DNA of 64,000 nt from Cryomorphaceae bacterium (GTDB taxonomy: Bacteria; Bacteroidota; Bacteroidia; Flavobacteriales_D; Parvicellaceae): the NCBI GenBank assembly GCA_905182525.1, contig CAJJBV010000002.1, positions 62,001 through 126,000 on the forward strand, given 5' to 3'. A program made the position numbers and the translations under genes. Every line of letters starts with the position of its first letter. Position 1 is the first letter of the stretch. The notes under the pieces were generated by a model. The model ran no database searches, was not told the origin of the DNA, and was given only the letters and a program-made list of their open reading frames with translations. Shown here piece by piece: positions 33,099-53,089 of this stretch.

Positions 33099-33237
33099 TT
33101 TTTAAAAATTTTCTTTGTCAATACATTAACTTTTAATTGCATTTTAAAACGCACTAAAGTATTAAAGTTTATCCAAGAAGATTTTATCAATAGAATTAAT
33201 TGTTGGAATTTCTGTAACTTAGCCAACTTTATAATAT

Positions 33238-34889
33238 ATGAATAGTTTAAAATATATAATCTACATCATTGCAATTTTTTTATTTTTCTTAACATGTAAA
33301 AAAAGAGAGAAGCTTGATTTGTCAACTATACAGACTTATCATCACATTGCTATTCCATTAGTTAACGCCCAAATAGGGATTGATGAATTATTAAAAAAAG
33401 ACACAGGTGGTTTAGTAACTACAAATCCACAAACTGGTGAAATTTTATTGGCTTATGAAAGTTCTGCAATGTCAATTGATGCTTCTGAAATAATAGACAT
33501 AATAGACCAAACATTTTCAGCTTCTATCCCTGCTGGCCCCACTTCTATAATTCCAGTTGGCAGTTCTATAGATACTACAATAACATTTAATCAATCATTT
33601 GTTGTGCCAAATGGTGAAGAGTTAGATTCCATAGATTTTTCTCTGGTGTTCTTGATTATTCAATTACCAATAATTTACGCCATGAAGTAGAAGTTACAAT
33701 TAAAATCCCATCACTTGTTTCAAAATTCTACCAATTCTTACTGTATTTTACTACGTAGATTCTATTGGACATCCTACAGGAAATAGTAAAAACAGGACAA
33801 ACTAGCTCTTGAGTAATTATATATTTGATTTAACACAAGGACCACAGGGGTTTAGGATATAATCAAATTGCTTGTTGAATTTATTCAGTTAAAATTAAAG
33901 GTTCTGGAGCTTCTGTAACATCTGCAGATGATTTAAAATTGTTTTATCGATGGAATGGTTTAGAATTTGCTAGAATTGATGGAGATCTTAAATATCAAAA
34001 GTTTGATTTGGGCTCTTCACCTGTAACATTAGCTATTTTTAATCTTTCTGATGGTGCTTTTGATTTTTCACTTACTAATCCTAAAATTGAGCATACAATT
34101 GTAAATAGTTTTGGATTTTCTGCAAATATGGGAATGGATTCGATGTATTATGAAGATTTGTCTGGAATTAAAATTGATGATATTAAGTATGATTCAACAG
34201 GGTTATCTCCTAAAATAGCCCCATTTTATTTTCCCTCAATACAACAACCTATTAACGCTTTTGATAGCGCAACAACTATTATTTTTATGGACAATACGAA
34301 TAGTTCCATATCATCTTTAATTAATGCTACTCCAAAAACTATTATAAGTAAGCCATTTGTTGAAATAAATCCAGACCCAACAGCTTCAAATAATAATTAT
34401 ATTTTGAGTTCTAGTAAAATTTCTGTTTCAACTGAAATAACATTGCCTTTAGTAGGTTATGCCAAGGGTTGGGTAATGCAAGATACAATTCCTTTTAATG
34501 CAAAAGTTGATGAATTATTTAGCTCTGAAACTAGCATAGATTCTGCAATTATTAAGTTTACAACCACCAACTACTTTCCTCTTGATGTTAAGATAGATTT
34601 AATACTTTTAGATAGTACAGGTTTAAATCCAATTGATACGATAGCTTCTAGATGAATTGATTATTGAATCTGGAGTAATTGATGCAAATGGGAAGATAAC
34701 TACTGCACAAGCAGTTACTACAATACCGTGTGATGGAACTTGTGTAGATAATTTAAATAACACTAGATTTATTGTTCTAAGACTTTCTATTGGTACAACT
34801 GGGTGTTAGCTAGTCAATCAGTTAAAATATATGAAGATTATAAAATTGAACTTGACATAGCATTATTGATTTCAGGTAGAATGTTTTAA
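33238..34889 (+). pseudogene. Broken large lipoprotein gene upstream of DUF5723
   Basis: A lipoprotein signal (LTCKKR, about residue 20) opens an intact first part to 33690. Related text then continues in other frames: HEVEVTIKIPSL near 33690, then YIFDLTQGPQGF, then the long open stretch 33939-34655, then VTTIPCDG and finally SVKIYEDYKIELDIA ending at 34889. At least four frame changes are needed to join them, giving a protein of about 550 residues. The end overlaps the DUF5723 start in TAATG, as in an intact operon. Function unknown. Either a pseudogene or a badly indel-affected stretch. Confidence 0.8.
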
Positions 34890-36682
34890 TGAGGTTGTTA
34901 ATTTTCATATCTAGCATTTTTTTACTGATTAAATCCTATGCCCAGCAAGATTTTATTTTATACCACATGCCGTCTATTCCTCAAATAACGCAGGTTGACC
35001 CAGCATCTATTCCAGATTCAAAACTTAATATTGGATTGCCAATAATTTCAAGTATTTATGGATCAGCTTTCAATACAGGATTTTCTTTAGGGGATATATT
35101 TTACAAAAATGAAAATGGTATTGTTATGCCAGATGTTGAGAATGCAATTTCTAAAATGAGATCTGAAAACTTTTTAATTCTAAACGCTAGCACAGATTTA
35201 CTTTTTGTTGGATTTAAAAAAGGAGACGATTATTACTCATTTAATATTACAGAAAAAATAGATTTTACATTTAACTATCCCCAGGATTTAATCACTTTAT
35301 TAATGGAAGGAAATGGAAATAACCTTTTGGGGAAAAGAGCGTCTTTAGATGGATTAGGATTTGATTTTACTCACTGGAGAGAATACGCAATTCATTGGGT
35401 ACATAATGATGAAGAGCGTCATTTTTCTTATGGGGCTAGACTAAAGTATTTATATGGTATGGAAAACTTTACTACAGATGTTAGTGTTATGGGAATTGAG
35501 ACAAATGCAAATACTCATGCGCTAGACTTTGATGTCTCTCTAGATTTTAGATCATCTGGTATTCCTATGGTTATGTTGGGATCAGACACTGCAATTGGTG
35601 GTTTGAATACAGATGATACAGATCAGATGGAAAGAGCTGGGTTTGCCGAAGGTTCTATTAGAAATTATTTATTTAATAGGAATAACAAAGGAGTAGGTAT
35701 TGATTTTGGATTTAACTACCGTTTAAGTGACAAACTTCTTTTAGAAGGGTCAATTTTAGATTTAGGCTTTATAAATTGGAATGATTATACTGCTAATTCT
35801 CAGCTAAAACAGTGGAATTATAGTTATAGTGGAATTGGAAATCCAATACCTGTTCTTGGAAGTGAATCCACTTCAAGTGTTAGCTTTTTAAAAGATGTTT
35901 TAGAAGACTCTACAGAAGGATCTTTATTAAATAGTTACGCGTACTCCAATCCAAGTTACTCAACTGCTCTCAGAACTAAAATATATGCATCTCTTGAATA
36001 TACGGTGGATCATAATAATTTTGTTTCACTAAGTTTATATTCTTCATTTGTAAGAGGAAAGTGGAGAAGAGGTTTAGGCTTAGCTTACAACTATCATTTA
36101 GGGCATAACTTTGCTGCAACAGCTAGTTATTCAATTTATAATAGAAGTTATTCTAATGTAGGATTGGGCGTAACTGTAAACTTTGGCCCCTTAGAAATAT
36201 ATTGCCTAACAGACAATATTCTTTCTTTTGGTATGCTTAGACAAGAATCTAATTCTTCCTCATCATCAGGCTTTACTGTTGATAACAGAAAAGTTAAAAA
36301 TGGACAAATTCATTTTGGTATAAATTTAGCTTTTGGAAGACCAAAGAAAGAAAAAGTAGATGAGCCAGAGGATGATGAAAACAGGGCAAAAGCAGTTAGT
36401 GATGATTCCCCCAAGGCAGCTACTACAACTAAAAAAAGTTCTGGTATTAAAACAGTACTGCCAACAGGAGAAGTAGAATCCCCAGGAAGAACCAATTACA
36501 ATTCTAAAGGAAATTCTTCACAAAAAGAAAAATCCCAAAAAAATAAAAAATCTTCTAAGAAATCTAGCTACAATAATAAAACAGAAAAAAAAGAAAATTC
36601 TAGAAAAGGAGAATTGAAAACTAAGGTTCAAGAAACAGCTCCTAAGAGTAGTACACTTAGAAAAGTCACAAGAAAATTATAG
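34889..36682 (+). CDS. DUF5723 family outer-membrane-like protein
   Basis: A 597-residue secreted protein with a signal peptide (about 1-18) and a long beta-rich body that resembles an outer-membrane beta barrel, matching DUF5723 (FILYHMPSIPQ near the N terminus, later DFGFNYRLSDKLLLEGSILDLG). From about residue 490 a low-complexity Lys/Ser/Glu tail begins (EKSQKNKKSSKKSSY), which is unusual and probably disordered. It is translationally coupled to the broken lipoprotein gene before it. Role unknown. Confidence 0.8.
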   Translation: MRLLIFISSIFLLIKSYAQQDFILYHMPSIPQITQVDPASIPDSKLNIGLPIISSIYGSAFNTGFSLGDIFYKNENGIVMPDVENAISKMRSENFLILNASTDLLFVGFKKGDDYYSFNITEKIDFTFNYPQDLITLLMEGNGNNLLGKRASLDGLGFDFTHWREYAIHWVHNDEERHFSYGARLKYLYGMENFTTDVSVMGIETNANTHALDFDVSLDFRSSGIPMVMLGSDTAIGGLNTDDTDQMERAGFAEGSIRNYLFNRNNKGVGIDFGFNYRLSDKLLLEGSILDLGFINWNDYTANSQLKQWNYSYSGIGNPIPVLGSESTSSVSFLKDVLEDSTEGSLLNSYAYSNPSYSTALRTKIYASLEYTVDHNNFVSLSLYSSFVRGKWRRGLGLAYNYHLGHNFAATASYSIYNRSYSNVGLGVTVNFGPLEIYCLTDNILSFGMLRQESNSSSSSGFTVDNRKVKNGQIHFGINLAFGRPKKEKVDEPEDDENRAKAVSDDSPKAATTTKKSSGIKTVLPTGEVESPGRTNYNSKGNSSQKEKSQKNKKSSKKSSYNNKTEKKENSRKGELKTKVQETAPKSSTLRKVTRKL

Positions 36683-36760
36683 ATTAATAAATTTCTTATC
36701 TATTTTTTTTGTGGTAATATGTTAATATTTTAAATTTGCATTTTACCACAACTATTTATT

Positions 36761-37402
36761 TTGTCTAGACTACTTAAATACCGCGCTGAAACTGAGAAAT
36801 TTTTCAAAGATTATTTGCCAGATGAAATGTTTATTAAATTACATTCAACTGACAGAATTCTCTTTCGAAAGTTTAGAGAAAACCGTAAAATAATTGAGTC
36901 AAAAGAAAAAGAAATTTTAATTCTTCAAGATCAAATTAAAAAACACACGAAACAAGTAAAAAAACTCAAAACCCAAATTGGTAATTCTCAAAAAGATTCT
37001 TCTTTGAAAGGAAAGATGATAGCTGCAGAAAAAAAATTACTTGTGTTTAGTAATGTTTATAGATTTAATTTATCAATAGGTTTAAGATATTCCAATATTA
37101 AAATTCGGAACGAGATAAATGCTAAATTTTATTTAAGAATTACCGCATATAATAAAGAATTTAAAAATTTATACATAGGGGGATATAGTAAAGTAAAGGC
37201 CTTATTAAAAGAAATACACAATAATTCTTTTGAGAATTATAATGAAAAGCAATTAAAATCGGAATTAATTCTACTGTATTCTGTTTACATAAGAAATTTT
37301 ATTTGGAATAATAGCCGGGAAGTTTTTTTTGAAAGTAAACATAGCGTTGAAACTTTAAAAAAATGGGCTAAAGATTTAGGAAATGATATTTATAGATGGT
37401 AA
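36761..37402 (+). CDS. Hypothetical coiled-coil protein
   Basis: A 213-residue, very basic cytosolic protein from a TTG start, with a Lys/Glu-rich coiled coil at about 40-85 and a helical C-terminal half. I do not recognise the family. A 77-residue gene follows after ten bases. The high Lys content could suit nucleic-acid binding, but nothing in the sequence shows it. Confidence 0.55.
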   Translation: MSRLLKYRAETEKFFKDYLPDEMFIKLHSTDRILFRKFRENRKIIESKEKEILILQDQIKKHTKQVKKLKTQIGNSQKDSSLKGKMIAAEKKLLVFSNVYRFNLSIGLRYSNIKIRNEINAKFYLRITAYNKEFKNLYIGGYSKVKALLKEIHNNSFENYNEKQLKSELILLYSVYIRNFIWNNSREVFFESKHSVETLKKWAKDLGNDIYRW

Positions 37403-37726: not shown

Positions 37727-39025
37727 ATGAAAAATATATTAATTACTCTTATTCTTACTATACCAATCCTTGGATTTGCACAAGGTTTTCAGAGCACATT
37801 TGGAGGAGACAGTCTTGATATAGGCAACTCAGTTCAGCAAACTACGGACGGAGGATATATTATTACTGGATCTACAGGATCTTATGGAAATGGAGATTCG
37901 GATGTATATCTTTTAAAAACAGATGCTAACGGGGATTCACTCTGGGCTAAAACCTTTGGTGGAGCAAATGAAGATTTTGGGAGTTCCTTAGAGTTAACTT
38001 TAGACGGAGGATATATTATTGTTGGAAGGACAACATATGGAAATTTAGATAAGGATGTCTATCTTATTAAAACAGATGCTAATGGAGATTCTCTCTGGAC
38101 TAAAACCTATGGAGGATCAAGTGTTGATTTTGGTCTTTTTGTGGTACAAACGTCGGACGGAGGATATATTATTACAGGAACTACAGAATCTTTTGGAAAT
38201 GGAGGTAGAGACATTTATCTTATAAAAACAGATGCTAATGGAGATTCGTTGTGGACTAAAACCTTTGGAGGATCAGTTTTTGATGTGGGTAATTGCGTAC
38301 AACAAACTACAGATGGCGGATATATTATTATGGGCGGAACTGATTCTTTTGGAAATGGGGATAGAGATGCTTATTTAATTAAAACTGATGGAAATGGAGT
38401 AGAGCAATGGAATCAAACTTTTGGAGGAACAGCTTATGACGTTGGAAATAGCGTACAACAAACTACAGATGGAGGGTATATTATTACAGGAAGAACAGGT
38501 TCTTATGGACCTGGAGATAAGGATGTTTATCTCATAAAAACAGACGGGAATGGCGATTCATTATGGACTAAAACCTTTGGAGGATCAGCTTTTGATTTAG
38601 GAACTTCTGTAAAACAAACACCTGATGGAGGTTATATTATTTCAGGAGGAACAAATTCGTTTGGAAATGGAGAAAGAGATGTTTATCTAATTAAAACAGA
38701 CGGCAATGGGACAGAACTATGGAACAAAACTTTTGGAGGGTCAAGTGTTGATATTGCTAATTCTTTACAGCTAACATCAGACGGAGGATATATAATTATT
38801 GGGTTTACAGAATATCCAGGAAACGGTGACAGAGATTTACTTCTAATTAAAACAAATGGCAATGGAAATATCACCTCTATATTTGATGTTCCAACTCCAA
38901 ACCCAAATCGAAAATTGGAAAGGATAGTTGATTTATTAGGAAGAGAAATTAAACCCCAACCTAACACATTATTTATTGAAATATATGATGATGGAACAAT
39001 AACCAAAAAAATTGTAGTTGAATAA
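37727..39025 (+). CDS. Seven-repeat secreted protein with T9SS-type C-terminal signal
   Basis: A 432-residue protein with a signal peptide (about 1-18) followed by seven repeats of about 52 residues, each with the pattern DGGYII-G-T--GNGD-D-YLIKTD-NGDSLW-KTFGG. These probably form blades of a beta-propeller. The C terminus (LERIVDLLGREI ... IEIYDDGTITKKIVV) matches a type IX secretion type A sorting domain. So the protein should be secreted through the outer membrane and attached at the surface. Ligand unknown. Confidence 0.85.
   Translation: MKNILITLILTIPILGFAQGFQSTFGGDSLDIGNSVQQTTDGGYIITGSTGSYGNGDSDVYLLKTDANGDSLWAKTFGGANEDFGSSLELTLDGGYIIVGRTTYGNLDKDVYLIKTDANGDSLWTKTYGGSSVDFGLFVVQTSDGGYIITGTTESFGNGGRDIYLIKTDANGDSLWTKTFGGSVFDVGNCVQQTTDGGYIIMGGTDSFGNGDRDAYLIKTDGNGVEQWNQTFGGTAYDVGNSVQQTTDGGYIITGRTGSYGPGDKDVYLIKTDGNGDSLWTKTFGGSAFDLGTSVKQTPDGGYIISGGTNSFGNGERDVYLIKTDGNGTELWNKTFGGSSVDIANSLQLTSDGGYIIIGFTEYPGNGDRDLLLIKTNGNGNITSIFDVPTPNPNRKLERIVDLLGREIKPQPNTLFIEIYDDGTITKKIVVE
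37800..38870 (+). repeat. Seven tandem 156-base coding repeats
   Basis: The repeats of the T9SS protein are visible at DNA level, with recurring GGAGGATATATTATTA and AAAACAGATG words about every 156 bases. They are part of the coding sequence, not a CRISPR array or satellite. Confidence 0.85.
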
Positions 39026-39692: not shown

Positions 39693-42600
39693 TTAAAAAA
39701 TTCTATTTTCTTTTTCTATTTTTATTTTTTCATCTTGAGAAAACACCATATAGTCAGCATTATTTCTTATTTCTTCTTCTAAATTTAACCCTTTTTCTTT
39801 TGCTTTATTTTTTATAGCTCTTAACCATTCTGGTGAACATTTAATTTCCTCAATAAATTTCTCAACTCGTTCGTCCCTCAATGCCATTTGATCAAAAGAA
39901 ATAGTTGAATTTTTAAATCCTGGAGAACCTTGCTTTAAATAATTAATAATCCAATTTTTCTCATTATTGTTATCAAGGTTTGGATATTTAAGCCTTATAC
40001 TTATTCCAGATTGCTTATAGTTCTCTGGCCAATTAGTCATTTTTTGGTGCTCAACTAGGTCAATCAAAGTCATTTGACCATCATATAGTAATAACTTTCT
40101 TCCGCTTAAAAGTAATTCATCTCCTAGTCCCGGTCTATAGTTATGAACTCTTGGAAAACTCTTGGAAAACTTGGAATCTTTATTGGCTATTACAACATAC
40201 TCTTTTGATTTCAAAATGAATTTTTCAGGAAAGGAATAGTTTAGATGTTTTTCATTTCTAAGAGTCCAGCCACTCAAGTCAATATCAATAGAAGAATAGT
40301 TATAAAGTTCAACCCACTGAACAAACCCATCAGAAACAGAGTTGGAGCCATAGATTTCATTAATTACTATTTTGGGAATGTCGTGCTTTCTTGAAATAGT
40401 AAGATTTGCACCTAATTCTTTGTAGCTATTGTCAATTTTAATTCTTGCTGGTGACTGTTTTGACAATTTCAAGTTGAAATTTTCCACGTCGGTGAATCTC
40501 GGATTTCCTATTATATTTCCTTTGCCTTTTAACATCACCGAATCAGATATTGAATATTGAACAGTAGCTTTAGAGAGAGAATCTATACATATAGCATCTT
40601 TTTTAATTTGTGAAAAAATGCAGTTTGAAATGTTGGCTATGCTACCGCCTGCTTTTGAATTTTTTTCATAAACAGCAACGCCATATTTATTTGCATAAAA
40701 AGTATTATAATCTATTTTGGCAATGGAGTTGCGATCTTTAATTCCAACTCCCATATTACATCCGTATATTACATTATTATTAATATTAACACTTGATCCT
40801 TGACCGACTGAAATACCCTTGTCTGAAATATTCATAATCAAATTCTTTTCAATTAATATATTTTGTGAATTCTCTCCAATATCTATGGCATCACTATTTG
40901 TACCCCGAAACCCGTAAATAGTATTTCCTCTAATAATTCCATTTTCAACTTCGTCATAATCAATACCATCTGTATCAGGATAATCATTTCCAAGAATAGT
41001 ACAGTTTTCTACACGTGCATTTTTTGTATGCTTTATATTAATAAAGTCGCATGTTTTTGGCGAACTCATTGTTGAGTTTTTTATTGAAATAGTGCCTTCC
41101 TCACTGTAAAATGGAAAAAAGCTACTATTTATATTTACATGGTTTAATGAAATATCAGATTTTAATGGGTTATACTTGCTTTGTATTTTAGTTTGTTATT
41201 GTGCCATGTAGCCTGTATTAAACTTGTATAGTTTATTTCTACTTTTGAGGTGGCATTATCAATGCAAATGGCTCCCCATTCATTTACACCTGATGGGTTA
41301 TTGGGCGAAATTAATATTGGTTCGCTTTCAGACCCGTTGCATTTTAGCCCGCCATGTATTTCTATTGAACAATGTTTTCCCATGAAAATTTGCACTCCCT
41401 TTTCGATTATTAAATCAACCCCTTTTTCAACCACCACATCACAAGTAGCATAATAAGGAGAGTTTTTTTTTGATAGTGTGGTATTTGCTGAAATTAAGCA
41501 TGGTATTTTTGAGTGTTTATTGTCTCTAAAAACAGCTATTATTTTAGTGTCTTTTTGAGGAATGAATTCCAATTTAGGCCTTTCTATTCTTTCACCATTA
41601 ATATCCCAATAAAGAAACTTTTTCCCTGGATCTGGAATGGGGGTTAATTTTATTGGAAGATTTTTAAAATAGTCCCCTTTGTGGATAATGTTATTTAGGG
41701 GTATCGAATTAATTTTGACATTGCCATCTTTACAGTTAATTTGAATATTTACCAATTCCTTAAGATCAAACTTCTTCATTAAGTTAGTTCTTACTGTTTT
41801 AGGTCTTTTTTTTGCAAATTCTCTCATTACATCAATTTCTTGATCCCAAAGTTCCATTGTAGGAGGAATGATGAATTTTACTGTTGAATCCCAGGGGCTA
41901 TCAAAAAAACTTTCTTTCCATCGTTCAATATGACTAGGCATTTCATATTTACGTTGACTTTTAAAATCCTCAATTACCTTTATAACTCTATCTGTTTTAT
42001 ATATTATATTTAAAGATGCAGCAAATTGCTGAATGAATTTCTCCTCAAAATCATCAAATTCTAACATTTTTCTTAGAAGAACAGTAGCCAATGACATATT
42101 TGCTTTTTTTGATGAAGTATGTGTAGGAGCGGTAGCATATTCTATCATGTTAAAATCCCATTTTGCTCCATTCCCAAAGGAATAATCCATGTCAACTAAT
42201 ACCCATTTCCATTTTGCACCTTCTTTTTTCTCTTTCCAAAATTTAATATTCCAGGCTGGCCAATCAATATTTGCTCCGAATATTTCTGCAATATTATAAT
42301 CTATATAATTGTCAATATCTATAAGCTCCTTAACATATTGATAGTTTAAAGGATTTGACTTATCACATTGTTTAATATAGTCATGGAGTTTTTTGAAATC
42401 TTCATCATCTCCATTATTTATATCTAGCCAGCAGTTTTGTAAGTAATCAAATTTATTAGTTGCTAGGTTGTGATTATTGCCGATGAAGCTACTATTTGTT
42501 TTTTCACGAATATTATACATTCCCCAATACTTACCGTTTAAATATACGATTGCAGGCCTATAATTAGGATGATCAATATTTATATAATTGTCTAGTAATT

Positions 42601-43723
42601 TAAGAGCAAATCCATCTCTAAACATTGAAGAATATTTGTCGGGATGTCCGCCTGCTCTTAATAAAATAGAAGGGTATTCATGCAGTCTAGAATCTTTGAA
42701 AAATTGGTGTTTTAATGTCGATTCTCCATATTTATCATTAGCCTCTAGGACTATCGCCTTTTGGTCAAAATACTTTGCGATATTACCACTAATTTTCATA
42801 TCTACTTTTTGATTAATTACTTGCTTAGAATCTTCAAAAAACTCCAAATTAGCAAGTCGTTTTATTCGTTGTAAGCTATTACTATAAATTCCATTTTCTG
42901 AGTTCCATAATGCGTTTTCGTCTGCTACAATTGAAATAATAGGACCTTTCTTTGATAAGTTAATAAAGTAGGTATTTGTAAGGATTTCACTGATTAATTT
43001 ACCCTCTTCAATTGCTACTGCTCTAATCACACTTGTTTTATTGATTTTAATTGGTGTTTTATACAATAATGAATTCCTGTTTGGCCGATTGCCGTTTAAT
43101 GTATACCTAATTTCGCATTTCTCAATTTTAGATGAAAGCTCTATAGTTTGTTTGTTTTCATACATTCCACCATCGATGGAAAAAATAGGCTTGGAACTAT
43201 GAATTAAATTTCTTGTGGCTATTTTATTATCATTTGAACTGCCCATTGTAGGCTCATCATAATACGCCCAATTATCGCTTGCATCATGGATTCTTCCATA
43301 AGAGACATTAATACTTTGTTGAAAATAGTTGACTTTATCAATTATTATTTTTTCTTCCGAAAACAAAAGAAGGCATCCTCCACTGCTATTTAGTTTGAAA
43401 TTAGTATGGTTAAGAGTATCTAATTTATCTGCCCAAATCAAAAAATGTTCATAGGGAGCTAACCTTGTTTTTTTTGGGATTTTCCATTTTGAAGGCTTAT
43501 TGTACTTGTTTGTTAAATAATAACCGCTAATATCAACAGGATAATCAAAGCCATTAAATAATTCTATGCAATCTACCTGCTTATGAGAAAGAGGATCCGC
43601 AATATCACTATTATTTGAAGACAAAATCTCATTAATATAAACACCTGGTGTTACATGTTTTTTTTTGCAACTAAAAAATAAAAAACAAAATAATTGTTAT
43701 GTGATCGAATTGCGAAATAACAT
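39693..43723 (-). pseudogene. Large surface lipoprotein with lamin-tail, CotH kinase and beta-helix domains, disrupted
   Basis: Reads as one protein of roughly 1,350 residues split in two. Order: lipoprotein signal (FFSCKKKH), lamin-tail domain (VYINEILSSN), a chitobiase-type beta domain, a CotH kinase domain (NGKYWGMYNIREK; DMDYSFGNG), a parallel beta-helix, a second lamin-tail domain, and a C-terminal ERVEKF...LEEEIR module. Breaks: TAA at 43697-43699 inside the signal peptide after the ATG at 43723, and a one-base shift near 41190, after which the frame runs through KYNPLKSDISLNH to 39693. The open parts are 41162-43624 and 39693-41069. CotH kinases phosphorylate secreted proteins. Confidence 0.8.
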
Positions 43724-43838
43724 TTAAGGCTAGTTTTTTCTAGTTATAAAAGTAATAATAAAGGAACTTGTTAGAGTCAATAAGCTTTTTAAATAGTATA
43801 ACGCCTAATAGTTTTCATAATCCCTAAGAAAACAGGTT

Positions 43839-44768
43839 CTAATTGGCTCCAATAAAGCTGAGATAATTCTTTAGTGGAACAAACTCCCATTTTAGCTTTC
43901 TTAGTTTAGGGTTATATTCGAATTCTAGTAAAAACTCATTATTAAGATTCTTAATATATTTATATTTTTTAATATTATTTGGGTTCTTCAAAATACTATT
44001 ATTTATTCCGCATCCTAAGTATTGAATACCTACCTCATCTTTCCATTCGTAACGTTTTGCTTTTTGACCAAAATCACCAGCTAGCACAATCACTTCAACT
44101 CCTTTTTCTTTAATTTCCTTTAAAATAGGCCAAATAGTATGTCTAAAACCTAGATGCCCATTATCATGTTTCGAACAATTAAATTGATTTCTGTCAGATT
44201 GATCATAATTTGAGTAATACTTTAAAGTTGTATCTATATCACCCCAAAAAGCTAAATGACTCAGCAGTATGAATTGACTTGATTGCTTAATTGTGTCTGC
44301 GATAGATTGTAAAACATTAATTTGATTCTTAATTAATTTACAGCTTTTTGGCAAGCCTGTTTTCTGTTCACTTACATAGCTAGCGTTAAAGACTTGAAAG
44401 ATTACATTTTTATGGTTGTAAATATATTCTAGTGGACGTTTTGTATGTTTTGGAATCCAATGAGCATTCCCGCTTTTTGTGTCGTGGTTACCAACTGCCC
44501 AAAGCACTTTTTCGTAGTTAATATTTAATTGTTCTTTTAAGTAATTAAGGTTTGATTCTTTTTGCGTAGTATTTCCTAAAATATCTCCACCAATTAAAAC
44601 CATTTCATATCCAGATAAATCTTTTGCTTCAATTCTCTCATCTAGTTTTTCATTGTTGCCCCATTGGTAGGTGTGAGATAAAAATATCCAACGCTCTTTT
44701 TTACTTTGACAAGCAGCAAAAAAGAACATGAAAACGAGAAAAAATAATAGCGTTTTAAAAATTCGCAT
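43839..44768 (-). CDS. Calcineurin-like metallophosphoesterase lipoprotein
   Basis: A 309-residue protein with a lipoprotein signal (AACQSKK, about residue 20). Phosphoesterase motifs: LIGGDILG (GD), the canonical GNHD (about 93), LLSHLAF in place of GHxH, and AGDFG. The first D-x-H motif reads SHTYQ, so one metal site may be altered. Such enzymes act on phosphoesters outside the cytoplasm. It lies between two CotH-type kinase genes on the same strand, suggesting a linked phosphorylation/dephosphorylation role; this is inference. Confidence 0.8.
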   Translation of the reverse strand: MRIFKTLLFFLVFMFFFAACQSKKERWIFLSHTYQWGNNEKLDERIEAKDLSGYEMVLIGGDILGNTTQKESNLNYLKEQLNINYEKVLWAVGNHDTKSGNAHWIPKHTKRPLEYIYNHKNVIFQVFNASYVSEQKTGLPKSCKLIKNQINVLQSIADTIKQSSQFILLSHLAFWGDIDTTLKYYSNYDQSDRNQFNCSKHDNGHLGFRHTIWPILKEIKEKGVEVIVLAGDFGQKAKRYEWKDEVGIQYLGCGINNSILKNPNNIKKYKYIKNLNNEFLLEFEYNPKLRKLKWEFVPLKNYLSFIGAN

Positions 44769-44823
44769 AGATACTTTTTAAGTATAGTTTATAAAAAAAG
44801 ATATAAGATTACAATTTGTAAAA

Positions 44824-46992
44824 TCATTTTATTTTTTTAGAGGGAGGAAATTTGCTTACTGTTATTTTCATCAAAGAATCTTTTTTAATCGATGTTTTAA
44901 AATAAATTTCTTTCGGTTTGAAATCAAAATTTTTAATTATAATGTTTGACTCATCTAAATAAGAATTAATAAAAAACGAACTTTTAAATGCAATAAATCC
45001 ACTATTTTTAATTGAATAACCAACTACTTCAGCTCTAGAAAAAAGGAAATTTTCAAATTGAAGAGTTGAAGAGTTTGTCTTAGATTCAACAGTGTTAACA
45101 TTCAAAGAAACTTTACTAAAGATTACATCCTGTTTATTATCATTAAAATTATTCTTCTCTTTTTTTATTGGATTTAAACTTTCTTGGATTGACTTTTCAT
45201 AACCTTTTTTATTTGTTTTCTCATTTTTGTTTTCATTGAAAATCATAAATAGAGCATTTCTTCTTATTTCTTCTTCTAATTCAACTCCGTTTTCTTTTGC
45301 TTTCTTTTTAACAGCATTTAACCATTTTACAGATGTTTTAATAGCTACAATAAATTTTTCTACTCGTTTGTTTTTATTAATTATTTGATCAAGTTTTTCT
45401 CTTACATTTTTACTACTAACTAAAAAATAATTTTTGTCTAATTTATCCATAGGATACTCGTAATTTAATAATAATTCAATTCGTTCAATTTCTGATTTAA
45501 TATTTAAAATAAAGCTTTTTAAATATTTTTCATTAGAAAACTCTTTTAGATAATTAAAATAAAGATTTGTGAATTTTGACGATAAAAAAAGTGTATTTAA
45601 AAGCGTAAAATCATTGTCATTTTTTAGAATAATTAATTTTAATTTTTTCAAATCTGGATGATTGGTAAAACAATCATATCCAATCGGCTCTAAACATTCT
45701 TTAACAGGATTAAAATAATTTCGTTGATTATGCCAAGCTAATCCATGACTAGATTTTGATATGTCGCAAATCGCAAGAAATTTAGCCATTTTGTCAATTT
45801 CTATATATTCTTCAATATTTTTATCCTTATTTCTATACTTTTCCATTTGACTTTTGGCTACAATAAACTGATTGAGCAAAACTTTATCTTTCAAAGTCTT
45901 ATTTTTGCTAAATGGAAGTATTTCTGCAGATTGTATATAGGGGTATTTCTTAAATTCTCCTGTATTTTTTAAATAAAACTGTGCTTGCCAAAACCCACTT
46001 TCATCAAATTTAACTATAGGTCCCTCACTTCTTTTTCGATACTCTAATAGCCTTTTATCAAAATGTTCTTCTACTGCATAAACACCCATGTTTTTTCCAT
46101 TTATATATACCACCTTAAATCTATATCTGGTCGTTAAAACATCTTCTTTTTCAAACAAGCGGTGCACAAACCATTCTTTCATAAAAGATCTTGTAGATGG
46201 ATCTTGAATTGAAAACTTTTTCATGCCAAGAAATGTTTTATTGCCAACTATTTTAATTCTATAAGACCACTTATCGCTACTTTTAAGGTGGTCAACCCAG
46301 TCCCCTTTAATCCTTATTGAAATAGGACATTCCTTCCCTTCTAAACTAATACTTGCCTTAAAATAGGATTTAATGTCATCGCTTATGATGTCCTGCTCAA
46401 TTGCTTTTTCTCTTAATCGAACTATATTTTTCATTACATTCTTTGGAATATTGATCCTTAAAATGTCTTTTTCTGAAGTTATGTCGGGTTTTTTATTGTT
46501 GCGAAAACAATCGATTTTTAGATCGTCAAAATAAAGGGCGTAATTTTCAGGGTTCCATATGTAAACATTTACTGCTTCAAAAGCTTGTTTAGCAACAAAG
46601 CTACATTTCATTTGCTCCCATTGTCCATCTTCATTTACAATATGTCCAGAGCTTTCATATTGAAACTTAATTTCTGAAGCTATGACTAATTTCCCACCAT
46701 TTATTCCTTTTCTACGCCAAACAGAAGCGTAAATAACATCGCCTTTTTTTATATGATTAAATTTGTAACTTGGACCATATGGATGTTTTTCACCTAGTTT
46801 AAAACCATATAGCCCTGTTCTGCTAAAGTCTTTAGATCTACATGATGAATTAGGTAAAAATTTTCCATCTTCTTTAAAGTTGATTCCACTAATGTTCTCA
46901 CCACTACACTCTAAGTGAAAATGCTTTAACTCTTCATTATTAGATACACACGAACAGACAAATAATATAAATGAGAAATAAATAAATTTCAT
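44824..46992 (-). CDS. CotH kinase-like surface lipoprotein
   Basis: A 722-residue lipoprotein (signal with FVCSC near 15). An N-terminal jelly-roll, carbohydrate-binding-like domain (about 20-165, YFDDLKIDCF) precedes a CotH-type kinase domain: RIKGDWVDHL, LGMKKFSIQDP, INGKNMGVYAVEEHFD, HNQRNYFNP and IGYDCF. A module near 556-600 (KRVEKFI...LEEEIRR) is nearly the same as the C terminus of the 39693 gene. A beta-rich tail follows. It probably heads the minus-strand unit with the phosphoesterase and the other CotH gene. Confidence 0.8.
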   Translation of the reverse strand: MKFIYFSFILFVCSCVSNNEELKHFHLECSGENISGINFKEDGKFLPNSSCRSKDFSRTGLYGFKLGEKHPYGPSYKFNHIKKGDVIYASVWRRKGINGGKLVIASEIKFQYESSGHIVNEDGQWEQMKCSFVAKQAFEAVNVYIWNPENYALYFDDLKIDCFRNNKKPDITSEKDILRINIPKNVMKNIVRLREKAIEQDIISDDIKSYFKASISLEGKECPISIRIKGDWVDHLKSSDKWSYRIKIVGNKTFLGMKKFSIQDPSTRSFMKEWFVHRLFEKEDVLTTRYRFKVVYINGKNMGVYAVEEHFDKRLLEYRKRSEGPIVKFDESGFWQAQFYLKNTGEFKKYPYIQSAEILPFSKNKTLKDKVLLNQFIVAKSQMEKYRNKDKNIEEYIEIDKMAKFLAICDISKSSHGLAWHNQRNYFNPVKECLEPIGYDCFTNHPDLKKLKLIILKNDNDFTLLNTLFLSSKFTNLYFNYLKEFSNEKYLKSFILNIKSEIERIELLLNYEYPMDKLDKNYFLVSSKNVREKLDQIINKNKRVEKFIVAIKTSVKWLNAVKKKAKENGVELEEEIRRNALFMIFNENKNEKTNKKGYEKSIQESLNPIKKEKNNFNDNKQDVIFSKVSLNVNTVESKTNSSTLQFENFLFSRAEVVGYSIKNSGFIAFKSSFFINSYLDESNIIIKNFDFKPKEIYFKTSIKKDSLMKITVSKFPPSKKIK

Positions 46993-47083: not shown

Positions 47084-47278
47084 TCAACTTTCAAGATAAA
47101 ATAAATCATCTACTCGACAATCCAATTCTTTTGAAAGTTTCAAACACAATAGTATAGAGGGATGAAATCTGTTATTTTCAATGGAGTTTATTGTTTGTCT
47201 AGAAACACCAATTTTTTTTGAAATATCTTCTTGTGTATATCCAGACTTTGTTCGATATAACTTTAAATTATTTTTCAT
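47084..47278 (-). CDS. Xre-family helix-turn-helix regulator
   Basis: A 64-residue DNA-binding protein consisting of one HTH_3 domain (YTQEDISKKIGVSRQTINSIE, about 14-34) and nothing more, as in YozG-type repressors. It overlaps the preceding membrane-protein gene by four bases (ATGA), a pairing in which the membrane protein is thought to control the regulator. Its targets are unknown; autoregulation is likely by analogy. Confidence 0.88.
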   Translation of the reverse strand: MKNNLKLYRTKSGYTQEDISKKIGVSRQTINSIENNRFHPSILLCLKLSKELDCRVDDLFYLES

Positions 47279-47734
47279 GAGTTATAGTGTTTGAATAGTC
47301 TGAATTTAAATATTAAATTAAATAAGAGAATTATTAAAAATAAGTTGAACACCAATACATACATATAGTTAATATTAAAAACTAAAAATGTAGATATAAT
47401 TATTAACCCAAAACTTATAAAGAGAGATAAGGACAAACTTTCTAATCTAATTCTTGAAATTAATTCATCTTCTATTTTCTCTTTACTAAAAGAGTTTATT
47501 AATCCTGAAACAATAATTAATAGGGTAAAAATTTCGTCACCTAAACCATTTTCTATCCACCCAAAACCTGTTCTGTTCTGATCCAAACCACTCATATGAA
47601 AAAATTGAAAAAACGTTGACAACAAAAATGTCTTGTATTCTTTCTGTTAACAATAAAAATAATCCGATTGGTATTGACAAATAAAAAACCACACCACTTG
47701 TTTTTTTAAACTTATTACTAAATAAATAACTCAT
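47275..47734 (-). pseudogene. Membrane protein partner of the Xre regulator, frameshifted
   Basis: The N-terminal part starts at the ATG at 47734 (MSYLFSNKFKK) with one membrane helix. It continues in a second frame from about 47610, holding GLDQNRTGFGWIENGLGDEIF and three more helices to 47275. The overlap of frames at 47537-47625 encodes the same bases twice, so a single-base indel near 47600 in a T/A-rich run separates them. The joined protein would be about 150 residues. It matches the small four-helix proteins that usually precede HTH regulators of this size. Confidence 0.75.
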
Positions 47735-47818: not shown

Positions 47819-48055
47819 TTATTTTAACTCCTCAATGATAGGTTGAGACACCTCTACGATATCTTTTCTATTCATTCTTTCTTCACGAATTAAACCTTTC
47901 TTATAAATGGAGTGAACATGGTTGTTTTTAAAGGTACTTCCTCGGGGTGTTTTTAATCCCTCCTCGTTGAAGATTTTAGATATCTTTCTATACCCAATAG
48001 GGGTAAGAAAATACTCTTTATATTCACAAATTCGTTGAATAAATACTGTTGATAT
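47819..48055 (-). pseudogene. Remnant of a recombinase-like gene
   Basis: An open frame of 78 codons without a good start encodes PIGYRKISKIFNEEGLKTPRG, then FKNNHVHSIYKKGLIREERM. This is the pattern of the helix-turn-helix end of serine recombinases (GYRKIAxxLNExGxxTPRG). Nothing of the catalytic domain is found upstream, so only the 3' end remains. The surrounding 47759-48146 bases hold nothing else I recognise. It may mark an old mobile-element site. Confidence 0.55.
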
Positions 48056-48146: not shown

Positions 48147-49987
48147 CTACTCCACTGTAACTGACTTCGCTAGGTTTCTAGGCTGATCAACATTACAACC
48201 TCTCATAAGGGCTATGTGATAACTTAAAAGTTGAAGTGGAACTGTAGCAAGTAGTGGGACTAAAAGTTCATCACAATGAGGAATTTCTATATAGTGATCT
48301 GCAATTTTTTTAACTTCAGTATCTCCTTGACTTACAATAGCAACAATCTTTCCTTTTCTCGCTTTAACTTCTTGAATATTTGATACAATTTTTTCATAAC
48401 TAGAATCCTTAGTTGCAATTACAAAAACAGGCATTTCTTCATCAATTAATGCAATTGGCCCATGTTTCATTTCTGCTGCTGGATATCCTTCGGCATGTAT
48501 GTAGGAAATTTCTTTGAGTTTTAAAGCACCTTCTAATGCTAATGGGAAATTTATGCCCCTCCCCAAATAAAGTGCGTTACTAGACTTTGATATATTTTAG
48601 CAATTTTTTCAATTAAATCATTTTGCTTTAAAACAATTTCTAATTTTTCATGAATTGTACTCATTTCAACAAGAAGCCTGTTGAATCTTTTGTTAGAAAT
48701 AGTCCCTTTTCTTTTGCCAATCATCATGGACATTAAAGTAAGAATAGTCACTTGAGCTGTGAACGCTTTGGTTGATGCTACTCCAATTTCAGGACCTGCG
48801 TGGGTATAAGAGCCACAATGTGTTTCTCTAGAAATTGAACTTCCAACGACGTTGCATATTCCGATAAGAGTTGCTTTTCTTTCTTTAGCTAACTTAATTG
48901 CTGCTAATGTATCTGCAGTTTCACCAGATTGTGATATGGCAATAACTACATCATCTTCATTAATTATAGGATTTCTATACCTGAATTCAGAGGCATATTC
49001 AACTTCAACTGGAATTCTGGCAATTTCTTCAAAAAGATATTCTCCAACCAGTCCTGCGTGCCATGAAGTCCCGCACGCAATAAATATTAATCTTTTAGCA
49101 TTAACTAATTTTTCTTCATAATCTGATATTCCACCTAAAACTACATTTCCTTTTGAAATACTGATTCTTCCCCTCATTGAGTCTAAAATAGACTGTGGCT
49201 GCTCATAGATTTCTTTAAGCATAAAATGATCATACCCCCCTTTTTCAAGTGTTTCCAAATGCATTTCTAGTTCTTGAATGTAAGGAGTCTTAGTTTGGTT
49301 TTCTATAGTCTTGAGTTTAAATCCATTTTTCAAACTTATTTGAGCAATTTCACCATCTTCAAGATAAACTACATTTTTAGTATATTCTATTATTGGTGTT
49401 GCATCTGAAGCACAAAAGTATTCCCCTTCACCAATTCCAACTACTAATGGACTTGATTTCCTAGCGGCAATTAATTCATCAGGATATTCATTACTTATAA
49501 CTACTATTGCGTAAGCTCCGATCACTTCATTTAGAGCTAATCTTACAGCATCAAATAAATTATGCTTACTATTTTTATAAATTTCTTCAATTAAATGAAC
49601 CAATACTTCTGTGTCAGTTTCACTTTTAAATTTGTGACCTCTAAGCTCTAATTCTTCTTTAAGAATAGAATAATTTTCAATAATTCCATTGTGAACTAGA
49701 CTTATTTTTTTATCACCAGACTGATGAGGATGTGCATTTACATTATTTGGAAGTCCATGGGTTGCCCATCTAGTATGGCCAATAGCAAGATTCCCATTAA
49801 CATCTTTATCTTTTGTAAAATCAATTAGATCTTGAACCTTACCCTTTTGTTTAAAGACCTTTACAGATTTTTCTTTAACAATAGCCACACCAGAACTATC
49901 ATACCCTCTATACTCTAATCTTTGAAGTCCCTTTATGACTATTTCATAGGCGTTTTTAGGCCCCAAGTAAGCTACGATACCGCACAT
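48147..49987 (-). CDS. glmS: Glutamine--fructose-6-phosphate aminotransferase, interrupted by a frameshift
   Basis: Makes glucosamine-6-phosphate, the entry to UDP-GlcNAc and cell wall. The start MCGIVAYLG carries the N-terminal catalytic Cys, and the glutaminase domain runs to about residue 240 ([18 protein letters not shown]). Two SIS domains follow ([17 protein letters not shown]). Near 48590 the frame shifts: one reading ends VTHFIWGGA, and the other continues as [20 protein letters not shown] to [11 protein letters not shown]. Joined, the length is about 613 residues, normal for the family. As glmS is usually essential, a sequence indel is more likely than real loss. Confidence 0.92.
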
Positions 49988-52162: not shown

Positions 52163-52197
52163 AACTACGTATCTCTTTCCTAAAAAATAATGAGTTG

Positions 52198-52205
52198 CAA
52201 AAATA
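52198..52205 (-). promoter_or_regulatory. Candidate -7 box for the starch-synthase-like operon
   Basis: On the minus strand the octamer reads TATTTTTG, fitting TAnnTTTG, 36 bases before the ATG at 52162. No clear TTTG is seen at -33 spacing. It lies in the 101-base divergent region shared with panC. Confidence 0.35.
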
Positions 52206-52263
52206 TAAAAAAAAAACACATAAAACCAACATTTATAGTAGCTTTAATTTAGTTTTATAACTA

Positions 52264-53089
52264 ATGCAAATAGTAAATGAAATCCAGGAATTAAATAAAG
52301 CTTTAGCTTTAATATCTAAATCTTCTATTGGATTTGTCCCAACAATGGGGTTTTTACATCAAGGTCATTGCTCATTAATTAAGGCTTCAAAGAAAAAAAC
52401 AAATTTTACGATTGTCACAATATTTATAAACCCTACTCAGTTTACCAATAAATCTGACATTGAAAATTATCCTGTTAGTTTAGAACAAGATTTATTTATA
52501 CTTAATAAAGAAGGAGTTGATCTTGTATTTTGCCCTAATTTTCAAAACTTATTTCTCAACGAAAAAATGATTGACATTTCTTTAGAACAATTAGATAAAG
52601 TTTTGGAAGGAAATGAAAGAAAGGGTCATTTTAAAGGAGTTATTAGAGTTATAAATATTTTTTTTAATCTAATTAATCCAAGTTTCGCATTCTTTGGTGA
52701 AAAAGACTACCAACAATATTTAATAGTAAAATATTTTGCAAATCATTTTTATCCGGAAATTAAAATTATACCTGGACCAACTCAAAGAGAACTAAGTGGC
52801 TTAGCGATGAGCTCTAGAAATAGTAGACTTTCGTTAAATGATTTTGAGAAATCGAAGGGGATATTTAAAGTTCTTACTTTTTGCAAAAGTAATTTTGAGT
52901 TTAATAAAAGAAAAGAGTTAGAAAAAACTTGTTTTGATATGTTGTCAAATTTCTCTACATCCTGAATATTTTGAAATTAGACATGCGGATGATTTGTTAA
53001 ATAATGGTAATCAAAATAGAAAATGGAGAGCATTTGCTGCTACAAGATTAGGTGGTGTTAGGTTAATTGATAATATTGCTATTAACTAA
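52264..53089 (+). CDS. panC: Pantothenate synthetase, frameshifted near the 3' end
   Basis: Joins pantoate and beta-alanine to make pantothenate with ATP. PTMGFLHQGHCSLI holds the HIGH-like site (about 24-37), with FINPTQF, GEKDYQQ and MSSRNSRL following. The first frame ends at 52965 with NFSTS and a stop. The expected C terminus, PEYFEIRHADDL to VRLIDNIAIN, continues in another frame to 53089. The break lies in AAATTT near 52955. Joined length is about 275 residues, normal for PanC. PanD, which often follows, is absent here. Confidence 0.9.

Follow-up and report, generated by a model that had tools for sequence, protein, structure and literature searches.

Background

One of the described systems closest to the genes treated here is CotH of Bacillus (PF08757; structures 5JD9 and 5JDA), a Ser/Thr kinase of coat proteins whose ATP source in the spore coat has been called an unanswered question (PMC7821199). 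Outside Bacillus, CotH, a polyphosphate polymerase and DUF4956 are described beside pel (PMC7112168), CotH together with VTC is described in C. perfringens (PMC2879425), and in the nearest tested relative, the Pel cluster of S. intermedius, Pel and aggregation decrease when either the CotH gene or the four-transmembrane gene next to CotH and the polyphosphate polymerase is deleted (PMC12345266). The last work also reported that the synteny of CotH, polyphosphate polymerase and DUF4956 was not found outside Pel loci. In a literature search that covered mostly listings, we found no paper on CotH-like function in Bacteroidota and none on CotH with a metallophosphoesterase partner. In this study we analyzed a stretch of 64,000 nucleotides (the window) from a Cryomorphaceae bacterium (assembly GCA_905182525.1), in which neighbouring genes encode a CotH-like protein (CotH1), a metallophosphoesterase (MPE) and a second CotH-like protein (CotH2).

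Our analysis shows that MPE and CotH1 are partners which recur across the phylum, and that the pair is missing or separated in the majority of the genomes more closely related to that of the window. The observation of the three proteins together exceeds chance, since their Pfam scores lie above the curated cut-offs and the pairing of MPE with CotH1 recurs elsewhere. The locus is most likely an accessory unit for the phospho-modification of a surface glycan.

Results

Linkage of MPE and CotH1 across genomes

Searching 399 genomes of the order, we found MPE in 18 and a CotH1 match in 117; 17 of the 18 MPE-positive genomes also match CotH1, an enrichment over the 117 of 399 in the whole set (Fisher p 5e-9, uncorrected for kinship and with weak CotH1 matches included). 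A match of 115 amino acids (aa) at L092 (E 0.0006), by eye a ribosomal protein, was not counted as MPE. Apart from the genome of the window, 17 genomes have MPE, and in only one of them (G040) does a CotH gene adjoin it. The absence of linkage that this count suggested was overturned by a wider scan, in which the MPE alignment was compared with the contigs of 84,980 species, each represented by a single genome. The scan gave 71 loci; at one of them (L221) the gene caller gave no open reading frame (ORF) for MPE, so that 70 were analyzed. The 70 loci are no random draw of MPE proteins, because the query alignment (A2) held one CotH1-linked member; one of them (L188) is the G040 locus, several others also repeat genomes of the order search, and 35 have less than 5 kb on one side.

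Of the 70 loci, 20 have a CotH1-family gene no more than 5 kb from MPE and none has one only at 5 to 10 kb. The rough chance expectation is 0.1 of 70, if each positive genome has 1.5 copies and a size of 3 Mb. Of the 35 loci that extend 5 kb or more in both directions, 15 have such a gene within 5 kb. The records of the 20 linked loci name Saprospiraceae, Prolixibacteraceae, Mariniphaga, Bacteroidales, Flavobacteriales, Bacteroidetes and one metagenome-assembled genome of Chlorobiota. A gene of CotH2 type follows MPE on the same strand in two of the 70 (L191, L201).

The neighbourhood of the pair resembles the pel-linked clusters of Streptococcus, Clostridium and Bifidobacterium, where CotH, VTC and DUF4956 stand beside pelDEADAFG (PMC7112168, PMC12345266), in that many of the MPE-linked loci have DUF4956, VTC or both next to the CotH1-family gene. 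VTC polyphosphate polymerase occurs in 12 of the 70 loci, mostly alongside DUF4956, and DUF4956 in 14; each of these loci has CotH1, so that VTC accompanies 12 of the 20 linked ones. AlgX-like, MBOAT and GT2 genes are also among the neighbours of the pair. However, the Bacteroidota loci add MPE, a propeller gene with the tail of the type IX secretion system (T9SS) and a beta-helix CotH, and no Pel family is among the 25 commonest of the 123 Pfam families in the neighbours. These loci are candidates for an exception to the Pel-only synteny. Of the 70 loci, 20 have the propeller gene no more than 1.5 kb from MPE, 10 of them with CotH1, and the T9SS tail was found in the one tested. The window itself has a propeller-like gene of the same cluster (37727-39025, plus strand), which in the genus occurs also without MPE.

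Fold and active site of CotH1

By profile and by predicted fold CotH1 belongs to the CotH kinase family, and a phosphotransferase activity is predicted for it. Pfam assigns it to CotH with 50 bits (cut-off 23.8). Its structure model has a mean predicted local distance difference test (pLDDT) of 68.7, mostly good over residues 22-541 and poor from 542 onward. In this model residues 170-544 match B. cereus CotH 5JD9 (Z 26.8, 326 aligned residues, 19% identity), and residues 22-163 match CBM16 modules (Z 11.3), with other carbohydrate-binding sandwiches matching too. The family profile matches 5JD9 by sequence as well (E 2.6e-6). In that alignment the NFDG Asp of 5JD9, which stands 23 residues ahead of the first WDYD Asp, faces an invariant His; the same spacing of 23 residues separates D228 and D251 of B. 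subtilis CotH. The D251 equivalent is present in CotH1 as D440, aligned to WDYD, and every one of 60 distinct family members has it, as well as K229, D231, H416, N422 and E435. Because His416, Asn422 and Asp440 are fixed in all 60, the family is a CotH fold in which one catalytic residue has been exchanged by rule and not by drift.

CotH1 thus shares with the Bacillus kinase the fold over 326 residues and the equivalents of D251, of the Asn and of the Glu, and differs from it in the invariant His for D228, in the N-terminal CBM-like domain and in its Bacteroidota surface context. A further difference is that the relatives of CotH1, about 980 aa at full length, carry a C-terminal beta-helix; CotH1 of the window ends at the point where this beta-helix would start.

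Fold and metal site of MPE

Fold and profile place MPE in the superfamily of calcineurin-like and purple acid phosphatases (PF00149). The Pfam score for Metallophos is 29.2 bits (cut-off 21.5), and the structure model (pLDDT 87.4, predicted template modelling score 0.88) has its best VIA-align matches in pig purple acid phosphatase 1ute (Z 19.7) and in GpdQ (Z 18.9). The canonical set of ligands for two metals in this superfamily is DxH, GDxx, GNH, H and GHxH. Over 46 rows of the MPE family the invariant residues include H32, D62, N94, H95, D96, H171 and D232, and the motifs GGD, GNHD and GD232xG are invariant. MPE thus resembles enzymes of the purple acid phosphatase and GpdQ type in its GD, GNHD and H motifs and differs from them in lacking the DxH Asp and in having GDxG in place of GHxH, where the first histidine has become an invariant Asp. 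As judged from these residues, one metal site may be retained.

CotH2 and a module common to CotH1 and CotH2

In CotH2, Pfam finds LTD, CHB_HEX_C_1, Fn3_assoc and CotH (127 bits) in a first ORF and Beta_helix and LTD in a second. The aligned sequence keeps both motif Asp residues, ANIDWPAWN...VDMDYSF (D-x4-N and DxD), and the D-x4-N spacing is that of 5JD9. The architecture LTD-CHB_HEX-CotH is a common one.

CotH1 and the tail of CotH2 have in common a module some 70 residues long, whose two copies are 49% identical. These copies are the only two in the whole genome, no Pfam family covers the module in a scan of the window proteins, and the aligned relatives of CotH1 do not have it. A related tail ends a protein in genome G186 (E 3e-9) that is AlgX-like by eye, and weak matches (E 0.001 to 0.01) fall in the tails of AlgX-like proteins near MPE at four loci (L156, L165, L168, L197).

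Origin of CotH1 and context in the genus

The homolog of the window gene 34889-36682 has a CotH1-family gene beside it in seven other genomes of the genus, and in six of them the homolog of 36761-37402 flanks that gene on the other side; in the seventh (G006) the contig ends there. In the window these homologous flanks are 78 bases apart and the usual CotH1-family gene of the genus is gone. The CotH1 found in the window groups with f8_g16 (100/100), outside the genus clade, and is a xenolog of foreign origin. Inheritance of all three genes together from the nearest kin of CotH1 is rejected, for the members of f8_g16 have no MPE beside them.

In the nine other genomes of the genus examined for it, there is an operon in which a gene for a lipoprotein-like protein (557-562 aa) precedes VTC and DUF4956. 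Eight of the nine operons also have an inorganic pyrophosphatase, and in the ninth (G004) the contig stops. The protein of 557-562 aa keeps the beta-helix and almost no kinase region (seven copies compared, alignments inspected for the first three), so that kinase and beta-helix are in separate proteins in the genus. The genome of the window has the same operon on contig 6 (L226, 7027-10650), where the gene for the beta-helix without kinase is broken and a lipoprotein-like inorganic pyrophosphatase follows with VTC and DUF4956. The kinase in this genome is the foreign one, also without a beta-helix, and it lies on contig 2; CotH1, VTC and DUF4956 are thus not contiguous here, whereas they are contiguous in some relatives. 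On contig 5 of the same genome (172-176 kb, L075) there are more CotH matches, interrupted by stops in several frames.

An alternative to any partnership is that an accessory hotspot beside glmS simply gathered unrelated genes for surface proteins, and that CotH1, MPE and CotH2 do not cooperate here. The stretch between the flanking genes and glmS does vary in the genus (G004, G005, G006, G008 and G009 differ), and G006 has a CotH2-like gene next to glmS with neither MPE nor CotH1. MPE is absent from the ten other genomes of the genus and from beside the f8_g16 kin of CotH1, and CotH2-like proteins are common, with a match to CotH2 at E 1e-20 in 354 of the 399 order genomes. However, the recurrence of the MPE-CotH1 pairing (20 of 70 loci), the private module of CotH1 and CotH2, and the two loci in which a CotH2-type gene follows MPE on the same strand speak against a chance assembly, which we regard as rather unlikely.

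Structure of the locus and quality of the assembly

The genome (2.19 Mb in six contigs, 96% complete) contributes a part of contig 2 as the window. The three genes are transcribed in the order CotH1, MPE, CotH2, with a gap of 55 bases between the first two; the features are collected in Table 1.

Table 1. Coordinates in the window of the features of the locus
Feature	Position	Strand	Description
CotH1	44824-46992	-	ORF, 722 aa; CBM-like (22-165) and CotH kinase fold (170-544), common module of about 70 aa, low-confidence tail
MPE	43839-44768	-	ORF, 309 aa; calcineurin-like / purple-acid-phosphatase-like, lipoprotein-like signal
CotH2, first part	41162-43624	-	ORF, 820 aa; LTD - CHB_HEX/Fn3_assoc - CotH kinase (Pfam)
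CotH2, second part, different frame	39693-41069	-	ORF, 458 aa; right-handed beta-helix - LTD - common module
His416 codon of CotH1	45745-45747	-	family-invariant; position of catalytic Asp228 in B. subtilis CotH
Asp440 codon of CotH1	45673-45675	-	equivalent of Asp251 in B. subtilis CotH
Common module in CotH1 (residues 527-597)	45202-45414	-	sequence comparison with CotH2 tail
Common module at CotH2 C-terminus	39705-39917	-	sequence comparison with CotH1
Spacer without CotH1-family gene	36683-36760	.	site of own CotH1-family gene in 7 other genomes of the genus
Frame-broken conserved genes	48150-49987, 33235-34886, 52177-53086		glmS and two others

An earlier note on this DNA had described three adjacent minus-strand lipoprotein genes, the first with a carbohydrate-binding-like domain and the last a CotH kinase fused to lamin-tail and beta-helix domains. 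The three proteins are there with the predicted domains, and the carbohydrate-binding-like domain of CotH1 is backed by its beta-sandwich fold of CBM16/CBM22 type (Z about 11). CotH2 does contain CotH, LTD and Beta_helix, but its "gene" is two ORFs in different frames with a break near 41165. As to the lipoproteins, signals judged by eye support CotH1 and MPE, whereas the lipobox-like FLFFSC of CotH2 is in frame with its ORF but has a stop just upstream and no start codon.

The frame break is no proof of decay, for three of the 23 conserved ortholog groups of the window, glmS among them, likewise span more than one frame. These breaks point to an indel-prone assembly and make sequencing indels a likely cause of the break in CotH2, with decay as a possible alternative. 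Counts from promoter and terminator scans are no different from those of shuffles, NCBIfam gives no match above cut-off for CotH1, MPE or CotH2, and sequence searches of PDB with the single proteins, the MPE profile and a profile of CotH2 type gave no useful kinase or phosphatase match. Upstream of CotH1, a remnant resembling a serine recombinase in its C-terminal part (47822-48055, minus strand; PF07508, 20.1 bits against a cut-off of 21.1) adjoins glmS, and between it and CotH1 lie genes for an HTH_3 regulator and, directly upstream of this, a small membrane-like protein (47087-47278 and 47275-47625, both minus strand).

Discussion

We favour, tentatively and at somewhat less than even chances, the reading that CotH1 and MPE are a recurrent surface pair of Bacteroidota which adds and edits phosphate on a surface or matrix glycan, or on a glycan-bound protein. 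CotH1 arrived by transfer into the variable spot beside glmS. It would hold the glycan by its CBM-like domain and transfer phosphate by the CotH fold, in which a fixed His substitutes for the catalytic Asp. MPE is probably a lipoprotein and has a reduced metal site; it would take away or process this phosphate or the donor from which it comes. VTC, the polyphosphate polymerase, and DUF4956, a membrane protein, both encoded with CotH1 in relatives, might cooperate with the pair. The recurrent pairing with phosphoesterase, polyphosphate and polysaccharide acetylation genes offers a concrete and testable role for the CotH-like genes, which are very common in the order.

Several observations weigh against this reading. 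His416 occupies the position of the catalytic Asp228 in all 60 members of the CotH1 family, and B. subtilis CotH is inactivated by D228Q (PMC7821199). In MPE the dimetal set is incomplete, since 17 rows have neither the Asp of DxH nor the histidines of GHxH, and its top match by Foldseek is GAP50 of Plasmodium (3TGH, E 3.2e-7), a eukaryotic anchor protein. GAP50 is not known to have enzyme activity. Moreover, MPE stands beside none of 39 CotH1-family ORFs of the order, which come from the best matches among the 117 positive genomes and lie in part on short contigs; VTC and DUF4956 are outside the window; and no sequence feature names a substrate.

The exchanged Asp of CotH1, the missing ligands of MPE and the rank of GAP50 would suit a pair of pseudoenzymes that only bind, and so scaffold a surface glycan or a secretion complex. 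However, the rest of the pocket has stayed the same in both families despite their deep divergence (CotH1 60 of 60, MPE 46 of 46), unlike typical decay, and the 562-aa relative in the genus, which has truly lost its kinase region, shows what real decay looks like. Such a scaffold is in our view distinctly unlikely.

The earlier note had taken the two CotH proteins and the phosphoesterase for a reversible system in which CotH1 and CotH2 phosphorylate secreted proteins and MPE dephosphorylates them. This would agree with the kinase activity of CotH on coat proteins (PMC7821199). The catalytic Asp residues needed for it are both kept in CotH2, and in CotH1 only the D251 equivalent is; the linkage needed for it holds in 20 of 70 loci across the phylum and is missing in close relatives, G040 being alone among 17 of the order. 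The suspicion of a functional pair in that note is justified. Against a ready kinase/phosphatase cycle on proteins, which we consider improbable, stand the exchanged residue of CotH1, the reduction of the metal site in MPE and the glycan setting. The context, namely the CBM, the beta-helix, VTC, DUF4956 and AlgX/MBOAT, points rather to glycan chemistry.

A bolder form of the glycan reading, which we hold to be very unlikely at present, is that VTC and DUF4956 make and export polyphosphate, that surface CotH1, with His for the catalytic Asp, uses this polyphosphate or a product of it, not ATP, to phosphorylate a surface glycan, and that the phosphate is cleared or recycled by MPE, joined in the genus by the lipoprotein-like inorganic pyrophosphatase. 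If true, it would answer where extracellular kinases obtain their phosphate donor.

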